Origin: Mucilaginibacter arboris
Lineage (GTDB): Bacteria > Bacteroidota > Bacteroidia > Sphingobacteriales > Sphingobacteriaceae
Length of the DNA: 64,000 nt
Direction of reading: 5' to 3'
Assembly: GCF_009754915.1 (NCBI RefSeq)
Contig: NZ_WPIK01000015.1
Location: 1-64,000 of the forward strand
Positions 22,571 through 62,488 of the stretch are shown one piece after another. The stretch's first letter is position 1. Each line of letters begins with the position of its first letter. Position numbers and translations under genes: made by a program. The notes under the pieces were generated by a model that saw only the letters and a list, made by a program, of their open reading frames with translations, ran no database searches and was not told the DNA's origin.

Positions 22571-23155
22571 TTACTTTGCCTGGGCAAATTCTAATCTCAG
22601 ATCAATAGTAACATCTTTGCCAACAGTTGCGCCGCCAGCTTCAGTTGCTGTATTCCATATTAAACCATAATCAAAACGGTTAACTACGGTAGAAGCTTTA
22701 AAACCAACTTTAGTGTTTCCATAAGCATCTTTAGCGCTTCCACCGTAAGTAACATCAAATTTTACAGGTTTAGTTACGCTGCGGATAGTCAGGTTGCCTA
22801 ATAATGCATATTTATTGCCAGCTAACTTTTGCATAGAAGTGCTTTTAAACGTCATGTTCGGGTATTTCCCTGCATTAAAAAAGTCATCGCTTTTCAAATG
22901 CTTGTCGCGCATATCGTTATCGGTATTGATGCTGTTTACATCAATGTTAAAATCGACTTTAGCATCAGTAAAATCAGGTTTGGTATTGGTTAAAGTACCG
23001 TTAAAAGTTTTAAAATTTCCTTCTACTTCAGAAATTACCAAATGGGTAACGGTAAATTTTGCAGAAGAATGCGCAGGGTCAACATTCCATTTAGTTTGGG
23101 CAAATAAAACAGACTGGCTTAAAACAAGTGCAGCGGCAATTATCAGTTTTTTCAT
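22571..23155 (-). CDS. YceI-family periplasmic lipid-binding protein
   Basis: 194 aa from the ATG at 23155; a longer ORF to 23212 is rejected because MKKLIIAAALVLSQSVLFAQ is a textbook signal peptide. The mature part is a YceI lipocalin-like barrel: WNVDPAHSSAKFTVTHLVIS, GTLTNTKPDFTDAKVDFNID, RDKHLKSDDFFNAGKYPNMT. YceI proteins bind isoprenoid or amphiphilic lipids in the periplasm. The gene has its own terminator (22516-22543). Exact function is not established for this subgroup. Confidence 0.92.
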   Translation of the reverse strand: MKKLIIAAALVLSQSVLFAQTKWNVDPAHSSAKFTVTHLVISEVEGNFKTFNGTLTNTKPDFTDAKVDFNIDVNSINTDNDMRDKHLKSDDFFNAGKYPNMTFKSTSMQKLAGNKYALLGNLTIRSVTKPVKFDVTYGGSAKDAYGNTKVGFKASTVVNRFDYGLIWNTATEAGGATVGKDVTIDLRLEFAQAK

Positions 23156-23302
23156 TTTGTCGGATAGATTTAAGTAATTTTTATTAATTATTATTTCCAA
23201 CAAAAGTAGCATTGTTAAAACTATGTTTAGTTGAGGCAGATCAAGAAATATGTTTGAACATTTAATTTAAAAACAAGATCATAAATGATCTAAAAATAAA
23301 AA

Positions 23303-23346
23303 ATGCTTCTTTTACCGCTAATAAATTTGTGCCATAAAAGAAGCAT
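23303..23346. terminator. inverted pair of 14-bp motifs, likely terminator
   Basis: AATGCTTCTTTTA (from 23302) pairs with TAAAAGAAGCATT (to 23347), giving a 13-bp stem with a ~20-nt loop. It starts 16 bp after the minus-strand stop at 23363. Two motif copies facing each other form the hairpin, as with paired uptake sequences in Neisseria. Confidence 0.75.
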
Positions 23347-23362
23347 TGCAAGTGATTATAAA

Positions 23363-24538
23363 TCAGGATAAATTATAAGCAGGATCTGTAACCGCAGCAA
23401 CAATTTGTGCCTGGCCGGCCAGTAATGCTTCGGCATATTCCTGGTGAAGTATACGTCGGGGCAACTCATTCGGAAAAAATTCAAGGTCCCACAATCCTGC
23501 CTGGTGCCAAACGGTTAAATGGTCCCAGTCTGGCCGGTCAATAATAGGGTAAATGCAAACTCCCCACAAAGGGATTTTCTTTTGCAGTAAAATTTCTATT
23601 TCATCTGCAATATACTTCATCCATTTCGGCCGGTCTTCTTTCGGGTGACTGGTTTCTGATAAAACTACAGGTCGCTGATAGCGTTGGTAAGCTTCTGCCA
23701 GTAAACTGTTGAACGGCCTGAAGCGGGGGTCGCGAGGCTCATCGATCCACTTCAAGAATTGATGTGTTGTGCTAACCCATTGATTATTATAATAATAGTT
23801 GAAACCGAGTATATCAAGGTAATTGGTAGAACCGCCAAGTTCCGGACAAATACGGCCCGAAAGAATATCGAGCACCTGATACTGGTTTTCGTGCAGGTTC
23901 TTTGCAGCTAAAAGTTCTTCTTCTGTGGCATTTAGCGGCGGTACAACCTGTATCAATGGCTCTGTTGTCATGATCCGGATAGAAGGATCTATTTCGCGCA
24001 TCGCTACAATAGCATCGATATAAGCACGCATCAGCGCATATTTTAAATCCCAACCCTGGTTGATGCTGTAAGGCGTAGTACCACGCACTTCACCGCCCAG
24101 CCAGGAAATGAAGCTTACTTCGTTTATAGGTGTAACAATCAGCACATCGTCTGGACTAACCGAACGATAAAAACGTACAAAAGCACGGCATAAAGCAGAA
24201 AAACGCGGTGTAAAATGGGGATGGGTTGGCGTTAAATCTGTTGCAAAACCAAAATGGCAAATATCCCACACTTGTTGTATGCCGTTGGCTTTGCCTCTTT
24301 CAATCATGTGGGCAACTGTAGTCCAATCGTATTCGTATGGTTTTTTTTCGACGTGGCTCCATTGGATACCTTCGCGCACAGTTTTAATATTAAACTGTTC
24401 CAGGTCCTTGTAATCCTGATCTATCAGTTCCAGATGTGCGGTTTCCTTCAGTAAGTCAACCCGGTTTCCATAATAATTCAGCTGGTCTGTGCATTCGTAA
24501 CCTGCCATCCAAAAAGACTGGAAAGGATTTTTGTTCAT
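23363..24538 (-). CDS. GH1-like (clan A) glycoside hydrolase
   Basis: 391 aa, a TIM-barrel glycosidase. The probable acid/base is Glu140 in TPINEVSF and the nucleophile Glu295 in VVLSETSHPK, at the ends of strands 4 and 7 as in clan GH-A. Other family-1-like features are REGIQWSHVEKKPYEYDW and LDILGFNYYYNNQW. It is shorter than classic GH1 enzymes (about 450 aa). No signal peptide, so it works in the cytoplasm on imported oligosaccharides. The gene is followed by the motif-pair hairpin. The sugar specificity cannot be read from sequence. Confidence 0.82.
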   Translation of the reverse strand: MNKNPFQSFWMAGYECTDQLNYYGNRVDLLKETAHLELIDQDYKDLEQFNIKTVREGIQWSHVEKKPYEYDWTTVAHMIERGKANGIQQVWDICHFGFATDLTPTHPHFTPRFSALCRAFVRFYRSVSPDDVLIVTPINEVSFISWLGGEVRGTTPYSINQGWDLKYALMRAYIDAIVAMREIDPSIRIMTTEPLIQVVPPLNATEEELLAAKNLHENQYQVLDILSGRICPELGGSTNYLDILGFNYYYNNQWVSTTHQFLKWIDEPRDPRFRPFNSLLAEAYQRYQRPVVLSETSHPKEDRPKWMKYIADEIEILLQKKIPLWGVCIYPIIDRPDWDHLTVWHQAGLWDLEFFPNELPRRILHQEYAEALLAGQAQIVAAVTDPAYNLS

Positions 24539-33507: not shown

Positions 33508-33934
33508 ATATATCCTTTTTAAAATTTTATGCTGATGCCAAAGCTAAAAAAAAATGAGGTGTGTTTGTAAGGAAAAAATGTTTAAAGGGGCAAGTTGGAT
33601 TTTGGTTGATAAAAAAACATCTTTAACAACGATTATTTTGATGGATTACTATACCTTTTCTATCTAAAAGTAGGATAATAGTTGAGAGCCCTATTGAAAT
33701 TTATATACCAGATGCTTAGATATTCTCAGGATCGATGCTCATACTTCTTTTATGCTTGTAAATGTTGTTTTCGTAATACATGCTGATAAAAAAAGCATAG
33801 AAAATTTCTGTTTTTTAGGTGATAAAAGAAGTATAGAAAATAAATTGTATAAAAATTTAAACCGGTTTTAACCAAATGTGGAAATTAATATAAAATTGTT
33901 AACATTAATTTAATATAAAAATTTTTTGAACGCC
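33508..33934. other. intergenic region with motif cluster
   Basis: About 430 bp between divergently transcribed lpd and the Oar-like receptor. It contains motif copies at 33741-33754, 33784-33797 (variant) and 33821-33834. The ~120-bp block 33741-33860 is repeated at 39118-39240. No coding potential seen. Confidence 0.6.
33741..33860. repeat. composite motif repeat, copy 1
   Basis: A ~120-bp block with three motif-like words (ATACTTCTTTTATG, GATAAAAAAAGCAT, GATAAAAGAAGTAT) and flanks TGTAAAT and TAGAAAATAA. The same order and spacing recur at 39118-39240. Confidence 0.75.
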
Positions 33935-39039: not shown

Positions 39040-39260
39040 TTAAAATATTCCTGTTAATTTTGGTCCCGGTTTATGAAAAGTAAGGGTCAGTTTAAATTTC
39101 GATCATAAAAATTTATAGTGCTTCTTTTATGCCTGTAAATTCTGTTCTTAGGTGTTATACTGATACAAAAAGCACAATAAGCCAAAGGATTTTATGTGGT
39201 AAAAGAAGCATAGAAAATAAGCTGAACAAAATTTAAACAGGTGCTAAACCGGGATTTTTT
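39040..39260. other. intergenic region with composite repeat
   Basis: Contains the second copy of the ~120-bp composite motif block. No gene is seen before the small ORF at 39261. Confidence 0.6.
39118..39240. repeat. composite motif repeat, copy 2
   Basis: Corresponds to 33741-33860: GTGCTTCTTTTATG (39118-39131), a damaged central word, GGTAAAAGAAGCAT (39198-39211) and the TAGAAAATAA flank. Confidence 0.75.
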
Positions 39261-44491: not shown

Positions 44492-44505
44492 ATACTTCTT
44501 TTACC
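44492..44505 (-). repeat. interspersed motif, left arm of pair
   Basis: ATACTTCTTTTACC, 4 bp after the exonuclease stop codon. It faces the copy at 44551-44564. Confidence 0.85.
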
Positions 44506-44516
44506 GATTAATAATT

Positions 44517-44547
44517 GGTGTTACTAAACCTGTAACACCTTTTTTTA
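44517..44547 (+). terminator. terminator of the exonuclease gene
   Basis: GGTGTTAC pairs with GTAACACC around a 7-nt loop, followed by eight Ts. It is enclosed by two facing motif copies (44492, 44551). Confidence 0.85.
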
Positions 44548-44550
44548 TGC

Positions 44551-44564
44551 CTTAAAAGAAGCAT
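44551..44564 (+). repeat. interspersed motif, right arm of pair
   Basis: CTTAAAAGAAGCAT, in inverse orientation to 44492-44505. Confidence 0.85.
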
Positions 44565-44668: not shown

Positions 44669-47041
44669 ATGAATAAAAGTAGCCTTAACTTTATTACCTT
44701 ACTTATCTCCCTGCTTTTTTACAAACAAAGCTTTGCACAGCAACAGAATGCAAGCATCAAAGGGCACATTACAACTTCTGATAATAAACCGGCAGAATAT
44801 GTTTCTGTTATTTTAAATGATAAAGGTGCTGGAACATTAACCAATGCTAATGGCGATTATGTATTTCATAAATTAAGGGCAGGAAATTATTTAATCAGGG
44901 TTTCTGCAGTTGGTTTATCTTCACAAAGCAAAACAATCGATTTGAAAAACGGCGAGGCCAGAACAGCAGATTTTATGCTTAATGAAAACGCCAGGCAGCT
45001 AAAAGAAGTAAATATCAACGCCAGTAAAAACAATAAGTTTATTGTTAAACAAAGCGAAACAGTAGGAAAAATTCCGTTAACGCAGTTGGAAAACCCACAG
45101 GTTTATACTTCCATCAGTAAAGATTTAATGACTGAGCAATTGGTTTTTTCGGTTGATGATGCCATTCGTAATGCGCCTGGTATCCAAATGATGTGGCAGG
45201 CAACAAGCCGCAGCGGCGATGGCGGCAGCTATTATAATTCACGCGGTTTCATTGTTCAAAGTCAGTTTAGAAATGGTTTGGCAGGTATTATAACTTCCAC
45301 CAACGATGCGGCTAATATTGATAAAGTAGAAGTGGTTAAAGGCCCATCTGCCACACTGTTTGGCAGCGCTTTTACATCATACGGCGGTTTAATCAATCGT
45401 ACAACCAAAAAGCCTTTTGATACTTTTGGTGGCGAAGTAGCTTATTCTGCAGGAAGTTATGGTTTTAACCGTTTAAGTGTTGATATAAATACACCGCTTG
45501 ATCCGGCAAAAAAAGTATTATTCCGTTTAAATGCTGCCGGAAATTACAAAGGCAGTTTTCAGGATGCGGGCTTTAAACAAAGCATTTTTATTGCACCAAG
45601 CTTATCTTATCAGGCTACAAAACGTTTATCGTTTTCGTTTGATGCAGAACTTTCTTATGGTAAGGGTACCGGCGATCAATTTATTTTCTTTGATCAATCT
45701 GTAGCGGCTTTAGGTGTGAACAGTGCAGAAAAAGTAAACATCGATTATAAAAAAGCTTATTTCTCCAATGATCTGATCCAAAATTCGCAAAGCAATAACT
45801 TTTACGGGCAAGCTGTTTATAAGATTTCTGATCAATGGATATCACAAACCAACTTTTCTGCCTCTAACAGTTACTCTAACGGACACGGGCCTTATTTTTA
45901 TTTGGTGCCAAAAGATTCGCTATCCAGAAATGATCAGGCTACCAGAAATAGTAAAGCAGCTTATATAGAAGCCCAGCAAAATTTTAATGGAGATTTTAAA
46001 ATCGGTGGCCTGCGCAATCGTTTTGTTGGTGGTTTAGACTTTACGCGCATCAATTCGCAACAGTTTTTTTACGGCGCAACACTTCCTAAAAATATTTCAA
46101 CCATTGGCCAGCCTTCCAACTATTATGATTTTAACAGGGCAAATTTAGATGCTGAATATGCTAAAGCAAATCCATACGGTTATAACACTTATCCTTACGG
46201 CTTCAGAAATAATACTTATAGTGCTTATGTATCTGATGTATTGAACATTACTGATAATTTATTAGCTTCGGCAGGTGTACGCATCGATCGTTTTGATAAC
46301 CAAACCAGTGCTTACAAACAAACTGCTTATTCGCCAAAATTTGGCTTGGTTTATCAGCCAATAAAAGATGTAGTTTCTTTGTTTGCCAATTATCAAAATG
46401 GTTTTGTTAATCAAAACGGCACAGATTTTAACGGCAAATCCTTCAAACCAGAACAAGCCAATCAAACCGAAGGCGGCGTAAAATTGGATGCATTTGGCGG
46501 CAAATTGAGCAGCACTTTGAGTTATTATTATATCGAAGTAAAAGATATTTTGAGAGCTGATCCGGCACATGCAAATTTTTCCATCCAAAACGGAACACAG
46601 TTGAGCAAAGGTTTGGAAGCCGAAGTAATTGCCAATCCGTTTGAAGGTTTTAATGTTGTTGCAGGCTTTGGTTACAATGATTCAAGATATATCAACGCCA
46701 ATGCAGATGTGGATGGCCGCCGCCCTTCAACAGCTTCTTCGCCTTATAATACTAATTTGTGGTTAAGCTATCGTATCATGCATGGTTATGTAAAAGGTTT
46801 GGGTTTTGGCGTAGGCGGAAATTATGCTAGCGAAAATCACATTGTCAACAGTGCAAGCCTTGGTGTTTTCAGCTTGCCGTCTTATACCGTTTTGAATGCT
46901 TCTACTTTTTATGACCTCAAAAAATACAGGTTTGGGTTGAAGTGTGACAATTTCACCAACAAAAAATACTGGATCGGATACACTACCATGAACCCGCAAC
47001 AATTAATAAGCGTTGTTGGAAGCATAGCGTATAAATTCTAA
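44669..47041 (+). CDS. TonB-dependent siderophore receptor
   Basis: 790 aa, outer membrane. Signal peptide (LITLLISLLFYKQSFAQ) is followed by a CarboxypepD-reg domain (SIKGHITTSDNKPAEYVSVI, residues ~29-110), the plug (LVFSVDDAIRNAPGIQMMW, IDKVEVVKGPSATLFGS near 200-230) and a 22-strand barrel ending in GSIAYKF. The order matches siderophore receptors of the FhuA/FpvA type. The PepSY membrane protein gene follows by 29 bp, an arrangement common for ferric-siderophore uptake. A palindromic operator overlaps the leader, consistent with iron control. Confidence 0.9.
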   Translation: MNKSSLNFITLLISLLFYKQSFAQQQNASIKGHITTSDNKPAEYVSVILNDKGAGTLTNANGDYVFHKLRAGNYLIRVSAVGLSSQSKTIDLKNGEARTADFMLNENARQLKEVNINASKNNKFIVKQSETVGKIPLTQLENPQVYTSISKDLMTEQLVFSVDDAIRNAPGIQMMWQATSRSGDGGSYYNSRGFIVQSQFRNGLAGIITSTNDAANIDKVEVVKGPSATLFGSAFTSYGGLINRTTKKPFDTFGGEVAYSAGSYGFNRLSVDINTPLDPAKKVLFRLNAAGNYKGSFQDAGFKQSIFIAPSLSYQATKRLSFSFDAELSYGKGTGDQFIFFDQSVAALGVNSAEKVNIDYKKAYFSNDLIQNSQSNNFYGQAVYKISDQWISQTNFSASNSYSNGHGPYFYLVPKDSLSRNDQATRNSKAAYIEAQQNFNGDFKIGGLRNRFVGGLDFTRINSQQFFYGATLPKNISTIGQPSNYYDFNRANLDAEYAKANPYGYNTYPYGFRNNTYSAYVSDVLNITDNLLASAGVRIDRFDNQTSAYKQTAYSPKFGLVYQPIKDVVSLFANYQNGFVNQNGTDFNGKSFKPEQANQTEGGVKLDAFGGKLSSTLSYYYIEVKDILRADPAHANFSIQNGTQLSKGLEAEVIANPFEGFNVVAGFGYNDSRYINANADVDGRRPSTASSPYNTNLWLSYRIMHGYVKGLGFGVGGNYASENHIVNSASLGVFSLPSYTVLNASTFYDLKKYRFGLKCDNFTNKKYWIGYTTMNPQQLISVVGSIAYKF

Positions 47042-51026: not shown

Positions 51027-51095
51027 ATGCTTCTTTTATCACCTAAAAATGTTGGTCGTTAGGTTTTGTTTTTAGGGGTTGATGCTTCTTTTATC
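51027..51095 (-). repeat. two direct exact motifs with extended consensus
   Basis: Exact complements at 51027-51040 and 51082-51095, each followed by ACCTAAAAA and then TGTTG. These show the extended consensus beyond the 14-bp core. Confidence 0.9.
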
Positions 51096-51115
51096 ACCTA
51101 AAAAATGTTGACCTT

Positions 51116-51160
51116 CACTAAAGACCTATAAGGTTTTCAAAACCTTATAGGTCTTTAGTG
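51116..51160. repeat. perfect 22-bp inverted repeat with 1-nt centre
   Basis: CACTAAAGACCTATAAGG and the next four T's are perfectly mirrored after a single central C at 51138. No matching terminator T run follows. It lies among four motif copies. It may be a cruciform or a repeat common in this phylum. Confidence 0.85.
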
Positions 51161-51187
51161 GATTAAATGTAAACACCAATTTTACCC

Positions 51188-51201
51188 GGTAAAAGAAGCA
51201 T
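51188..51201 (+). repeat. interspersed 14-bp motif (variant)
   Basis: GGTAAAAGAAGCAT, pointing the opposite way from the copies at 51027 and 51082. Confidence 0.88.
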
Positions 51202-62429: not shown

Positions 62430-62458
62430 ATGCTTCTTTTACGGCATAAAAAAAGCAT
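62430..62458. repeat. facing pair of motif copies
   Basis: ATGCTTCTTTTACG (62430-62443) faces CATAAAAAAAGCAT (62445-62458). A short stem can form, directly before a terminator. Confidence 0.8.
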
Positions 62459-62488
62459 CAGTAATGAGTTTTGCTACTGATGTTTTTT
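62456..62488. terminator. bidirectional terminator
   Basis: CATCAGTA pairs with TACTGATG around an 11-nt loop, with T runs. It ends 20 bp downstream of the transglutaminase stop (62509). Confidence 0.8.

Follow-up and report, generated by a model that had tools for sequence, protein, structure and literature searches.

The genomes of Mucilaginibacter carry, in many copies and across the genus, a recognition word about 24 bp long, which is most likely a DNA uptake sequence, with some of its inverted pairs apparently recruited as intrinsic terminators. We put the probability of this reading, which is drawn from sequence, at roughly 0.55. A surface protein would prefer DNA bearing the word, natural transformation would favour word-containing alleles, and the word would accumulate through substitution and recombination. 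With thousands of copies at hand in either orientation, some inverted pairs could then be recruited as terminators. The sequence itself shows the word, how abundant it is, its longer form, its conservation, that its pairs are spaced non-randomly, and a hairpin followed by a T-tract; uptake, biased transformation and actual termination are what we infer. A hairpin at 23303-23346 in the window (the whole 64-kb stretch of Mucilaginibacter arboris DNA analysed here) is built from two copies of the word; on its own this hairpin is ordinary, and the notable thing is the word behind it.

An abundant word confined to one genus

The 12-mer ATGCTTCTTTTA occurs 1,947 times as an exact match genome-wide (982 forward, 965 reverse), compared with once for its reversed control, and the window holds 71 matches with one mismatch allowed, where 4.1 are expected. 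Copies number 2,114 in the congener G001 and 1,118 in G002, but 0-9 in each of 57 further genomes drawn from the family and class. A variant core with GT in place of TC, ATRCTGTTTTTA, shows the same restriction to the genus (714, 856 and 786 copies in the three genus genomes vs 0-25 elsewhere), and cores that mix the TC and GT forms are less common than either by several-fold. The share of the GT core varies among the three genomes and is relatively high in G002, as if the preferred form were shifting. No comparable word of their own was seen in 19 relatives from other genera, with ~20 kb sampled from each. When species-level genome contigs were scanned for facing pairs, almost all of the matches listed came from two MAGs ('uncultured Mucilaginibacter' and a lichen-associated Sphingobacteriaceae), and viral contigs gave 12 single, scattered motif matches and no motif-rich virus.

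In aligned copies, ATGCTTCTTTTA leads into Y C R S C; one free base comes next, and positions +17 to +22 hold an A/T tract. The full signal is thus about 24 bp long, ATRCT(TC/GT)TTTTA-YCRSC-N-WWWWW-T, with the A/T tract one helical turn downstream. Three other cores, TGCTGTTTTTA, TACTTCTTTTA and TACTGTTTTTA, have this extension too, making four core variants in all that share it, and the 24-bp form also holds for 170 intragenic solo copies, whose tract mixes A and T. The word occurs in genes and in gaps, with about 30-40% of copies intragenic, and is strand-neutral: neighbours more than 200 bp apart have the same orientation in 166 cases and opposite orientations in 158. Motif clusters show no clear tendency to be spaced more evenly than random (P 0.07 and 0.28).

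The word is conserved between species. Across 122 kb of alignment to G001 and G002, where identity is 79%, 42 of 64 motif sites keep an identical core, compared with 11% of background 11-mers. Motif sites that differ do so nearly always by substitution, mostly by 1-3 changes, repeatedly from TC to GT or from G to A, with few gaps. For a solo motif, the best facing partner either matches perfectly or does no better than chance, a bimodal distribution by which solos are not decayed pairs. The stretches of the genome that we sampled comprise 760 kb not chosen for pairs and 489 kb around pairs, and the longest motif-free tract in this sample is an integrase and Type III restriction-modification island, followed by a CRISPR array; these are two observations, with no statistic attached. 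The island (C12:148235-160513; L025:9257-18740) encodes a phage integrase, an HTH protein, Type III restriction-modification genes and an OLD-like AAA ATPase, and the array, from the same genome (C67:136447-144989; L069:11447-19989), consists of 113 copies of the repeat GTTGTGATTTGCTTTCATTCTTTGAATTACTGATATTTAACCCAAC.

Conserved by substitution, intact when solo and randomly oriented, the word behaves as an uptake sequence, unlike mobile repeats or strand-biased sites; its lack in the island and the array may reflect the depletion in recently acquired DNA that is typical of uptake sequences. Over-representation by hundreds-fold on both strands, coding copies kept by substitution and lineage-specific dialects are features of uptake sequences, and all three are found here.

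Word pairs and transcription termination

The plus strand at 23303-23346 reads AATGCTTCTTTTACCGCTAATAAATTTGTGCCATAAAAGAAGCATT, and its arms are two facing copies of the word that pair over 13 bp around a loop of ~18 nt. The plus-strand copy (core TGCTTCTTTTA, 23304-23314) continues into CCGCT and an A/T tract, and the minus-strand copy (core TGCTTCTTTTA, 23335-23345) into TGGCA and the A/T tract that is common to both. The initial annotation had described a 13-bp stem made solely of two opposite motif copies, lying 16 bp after a stop codon, and both the sequence and the 391-aa ORF at 23363-24538 on the minus strand confirm this. Minus-strand RNA is predicted to fold at -20.1 kcal/mol and then runs into the T-rich tract TTTTTTATTTTT (23292-23303, minus strand), so that a stable stem close behind a stop codon is followed by a T-tract, as in intrinsic terminators. 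Downstream of the hairpin is a gene with a YceI-like domain (22571-23212, minus strand). An Rfam search of the window returned one tRNA and nothing else. The upstream ORF had been called a GH gene; the ORF exists, but its identity as a glycosidase is uncertain, with a sole, weak GH35-family match (E 2.5e-5, far under the family cut-off) and no Pfam or PDB sequence match.

At the 3' end of the orthologous gene, G002 has an ordinary GC-rich hairpin, AAGCCTGCTGCC..GGTAGCAGGCTTTTTTT, with T7, and G001 has another inverted repeat. Because congeners carry other hairpins after the same gene, a terminator role for the hairpin at 23303-23346 is likely, and the best evidence for that role is that the motif pair occupies the place of a relative's conventional terminator. 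The strength of this putative terminator is uncertain, since the stem is AT-rich and the loop is long. Together with the predicted stability and the T-rich tract, the hairpins of the congeners make the original description as terminator-like plausible, and we consider that the hairpin exists as described and probably ends transcription. The minus-strand transcript of the 391-aa gene would fold into the 13-bp stem and be released at the U-rich tract.

Pairs were compared with a null model in which positions and strands were shuffled within each gene or gap (2000 shuffles). As a raw count, facing pairs at <=50 bp do not exceed chance expectation (11 observed vs 8.2 shuffled), so the proposed excess over random placement fails for the raw count and stands for preferred spacings: 7 facing pairs vs 0.83 expected at 29-32 bp, a number reached in 0 of 2000 shuffles, and 34 vs 4.2 expected at 65-90 bp. 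Back-to-back pairs are concentrated at 25-28 bp (7 vs 0.83 expected), and hardly any same-direction (tandem) pairs occur within 50 bp (1 vs 16.7 expected). Counted genome-wide, exact facing pairs number 32 at gaps of 2-32 and 148 at gaps of 54-84; in 27 of the 32 the start-to-start spacing is 29-32, at which both extended words use one central A/T tract in common. T-content is 5.0/10 after short facing pairs and 3.96/10 after solos (P 0.0016). In the sample not chosen for pairs, short facing pairs have a density of 0.238/kb in tail-to-tail, 0.052 in codirectional and 0 in head-to-head gaps, with 4 of 7 pairs, a small count, lying tail-to-tail. Over all fetched sequence, 13 are tail-to-tail, 16 codirectional and 2 head-to-head, and 6 are in ORFs.

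The stress first put on the facing orientation is not borne out as stated: the canonical succession of A-tract, stem and T-tract is built by the words alone when they stand back-to-back. There are 52 such pairs genome-wide, reading AAAAGAAGC..GCTTCTTTT. Complementarity in their loops exceeds chance (1.29 vs 0.49 bp; 0 of 5000 shuffles), and their median distance behind a stop codon is 14 bp, not significantly shorter than that of solos. The facing class at 29-32 bp looks terminator-like, and back-to-back pairs are predicted to be the stronger terminators genome-wide.

A simple hairpin detector found 77 terminator-like hairpins (4 in shuffled sequence), of which 9 contain the motif, mostly back-to-back. 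By these predictions the motif does serve in terminators, though in a minority of cases, and the main role of the word should lie elsewhere. It is very improbable that the motif is simply the genus's favoured terminator building block, devoid of uptake or any other DNA-level role. Such a block would fit the good terminators predicted from back-to-back pairs and the higher motif density in tail-to-tail than in head-to-head gaps (3.7/kb vs 1.6/kb), but it does not fit a motif that is present in just 9 of the 77 hairpins, whose copies are mostly solo, in both orientations and often intragenic, and whose 24-bp form holds where no hairpin is formed. The coding copies rule it out as a complete account.

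Two further facing pairs in the window had been cited alongside the hairpin. The one placed at 44492/44551, flanking a terminator after the exonuclease gene, is present, with TACTTCTTTTA at 44493-44503 (plus strand) and TGCTTCTTTTA at 44553-44563 (minus strand), but the predicted terminator is another hairpin, enclosed by the pair (44493-44563). This inner element is an independent GC hairpin at 44517-44539 with T7 at 44540-44546, and the T7 also serves the minus-strand word as its A-tract. In G001 the pair is conserved, with ATACTGTTTTTA as its left copy. Directly after the exonuclease gene, 44669-47041 encodes a TonB-dependent receptor with a carboxypeptidase-regulatory domain, which is also found in a Riemerella transformation protein and is very common in Bacteroidota. 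The other pair, given as 62430/62445, is found at 62431/62447 (62431-62457) and is a weak example: its second copy, TGCTTTTTTTA, has one mismatch, and folding prefers a separate terminator-like hairpin at 62456-62488, CATCAGTA..TACTGATG-TTTTTT, which is predicted to be the better terminator.

A family of facing elements of about 92 bp

Facing pairs at 65-110 bp belong to a family of ~92-bp repeats. Its members have inverted ends of 24 bp and a conserved right arm, ATTTTTAGGTGATAAAAGAAGCAT, and fall into several subfamilies; similarity links 63 of 64 elements. The window contains one element with facing TACTTCTTTTA ends (33741-33834), one with facing TGCTTCTTTTA ends (39118-39211), and a long facing pair at a spacing of 107 with the inner hairpin ACTAAAGACCTATAAGGT..ACCTTATAGGTCTTTAGT (51083-51200). 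Copies with exact ends number 148 in this genome (the pairs at gaps of 54-84), 241 in G001 and 35 in G002, making the family the commonest class of facing pair, with a third of all exact facing pairs. The elements lie mostly between codirectional genes and have no T-tails; the general claim that facing pairs act as terminators may hold for the 29-32-bp class but not for this most common one.

A second palindromic repeat, CCCTCTCC..GGAGAGGG..GGGGTGAGG, lies inside long facing elements in 6 of 10 cases (e.g. C12:173694 and C12:215293). At C12:129000-280000, genes are mostly codirectional and of sizes typical of SusC/SusD-type loci, and ~92-bp elements are unusually dense in the gaps. An attC-like integron array was considered for the dense long hairpins of C12 and rejected in favour of carbohydrate-utilisation clusters with long, non-cassette genes, the SusC/SusD naming coming from gene sizes only. 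A REPIN linked to Y1 transposases was also rejected, as the flanks of these genes hold few motif copies and the arrangement is not REPIN-like.

The family bears on whether the motif as a whole is the terminal repeat of a REPIN- or MITE-like miniature element, with the ~92-bp facing form replicating and the solos as its remnants. The ~92-bp elements resemble REP/REPIN sequences associated with RAYT transposases in size, inverted-doublet form and intergenic placement, and REPs too occur as singlets and inverted doublets (PMC3116915). Homologous copies with facing, inverted motif ends are found at many unrelated sites, Y1 transposase genes are present, and such an origin does explain the ~92-bp family itself. 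As an account of the word it is quite unlikely. The single motif is non-palindromic, unlike a REP; it is frequent in genes, and the 30-40% of copies that are intragenic align to orthologues mainly by substitution, with few indels. Solos are as intact as pairs and their partners bimodal, whereas REP singlets decay, and G002 has 1,118 motifs yet just 35 long elements. Remnant status is largely contradicted for the solos by the coding-region alignments. The ~92-bp elements look like miniature mobile elements ended by the word, which they may have captured or else spread early on.

Possible uptake machinery and known systems

The type IV pilus is the machine behind all known uptake sequences. ComEC (with DUF4131) and DprA are present; both are widespread and non-discriminating for uptake sequences. 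A search for PF00437, the motor ATPase family of the type IV pilus and T2SS, gave no match above cut-off in any of the three genus genomes and did find the family in several relatives and controls, so that by this search the genus lacks the pilus machine with a minor-pilin receptor that is a feature of uptake-sequence systems. DUF5689 was not detected in the genus, and no outer-membrane receptor candidate was found beside comEC or dprA. A missing pilus motor does not exclude transformation, since Riemerella anatipestifer transforms without pilus homologues (PMC8459023). That species resembles Mucilaginibacter as a member of the Bacteroidota with ComEC and DprA; it differs in that no uptake sequence is mentioned for it (PMC8459023), and its DUF5689 protein, not detected in Mucilaginibacter, is linked to pilus-free transformation. 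The initial annotation had taken terminator pairs as support for uptake. They are compatible with it, and the motif is uptake-like on the sequence criteria tested, but they are no proof of it, and the pilus motor was not detected.

The absence of the motor also favours another reading, in which the word is the target of a chromosomal DNA-binding protein particular to the genus and unrelated to uptake, acting in the nucleoid, at recombination hotspots, in segregation or in methylation, with terminator pairs as a secondary use. The form of the signal, 24 bp long, like a protein site and conserved across species, favours it too. We regard this as possible but unlikely. Chi- and KOPS-like sites are strand-biased, whereas the motif is strand-neutral; known sites of this kind are seldom maintained at a density of ~0.6 exact cores per kb, genes included; and discrete TC/GT states with few intermediates, together with the copy-free island, fit exchange by recombination better.

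An uptake sequence, the reading we prefer, has close parallels. The Pasteurellaceae USS (AAGTGCGGT with phased RWWWWW tracts) is similar in length and likewise combines a non-palindromic core with A/T tracts one turn downstream, and it has about 1,000-2,000 copies on both strands, in genes and gaps, some of them in terminators (PMC1852404). Its inverted pairs lie at about 30 bp when facing and about 25 bp when back-to-back (PMC1852404), matching the spacings of the Mucilaginibacter word (29-32 and 25-28). The Mucilaginibacter core, in contrast, is unrelated and AT-rich, has one clear tract rather than two and belongs to another phylum; the pilus motor is not found in the Mucilaginibacter genomes, where the word is a putative uptake sequence. 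The Neisseriaceae DUS (ATGCCGTCTGAA and relatives) is also a 12-mer with thousands of copies and discrete dialects, its inverted pairs serve as terminators, mostly tail-to-tail, and islands are depleted of it, as may be so in Mucilaginibacter (PMC1852404, PMC3630211, PMC2397512, PMC7371117). Unlike the Mucilaginibacter word, the DUS has no downstream A/T tract, whereas two core variants coexist in each Mucilaginibacter genome. T-tailed terminators come from facing pairs in Neisseria (PMC1852404) and, by prediction, from back-to-back pairs in Mucilaginibacter; the orientation is reversed, in keeping with a T-run at the opposite end of the word.

According to a 2025 paper, recognition of self DNA via a genomic word is known from no groups other than Neisseriaceae and Pasteurellaceae (PMC12616744). 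To our knowledge the word described here is unreported, and the literature we searched describes no motif of this sort from Bacteroidota; it would be the first such system in the phylum if uptake holds. We see about an even chance that it is the first uptake-sequence system outside those two families, in a Bacteroidota genus lacking a pilus motor, with a 24-bp word, two interchangeable cores, a predicted outer-membrane receptor and pairs that independently became terminators. If so, it would be a third, unrelated case, in another phylum and apparently pilus-free, and self-recognition by abundant words would be something that evolves repeatedly. The orientation of its terminators, opposite to that in Neisseria as the position of the T-run predicts, would be an independent test of the co-option of uptake words as terminators. 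The word would also offer a handle on the outer-membrane DNA importer of Bacteroidota and a practical key to transforming them.
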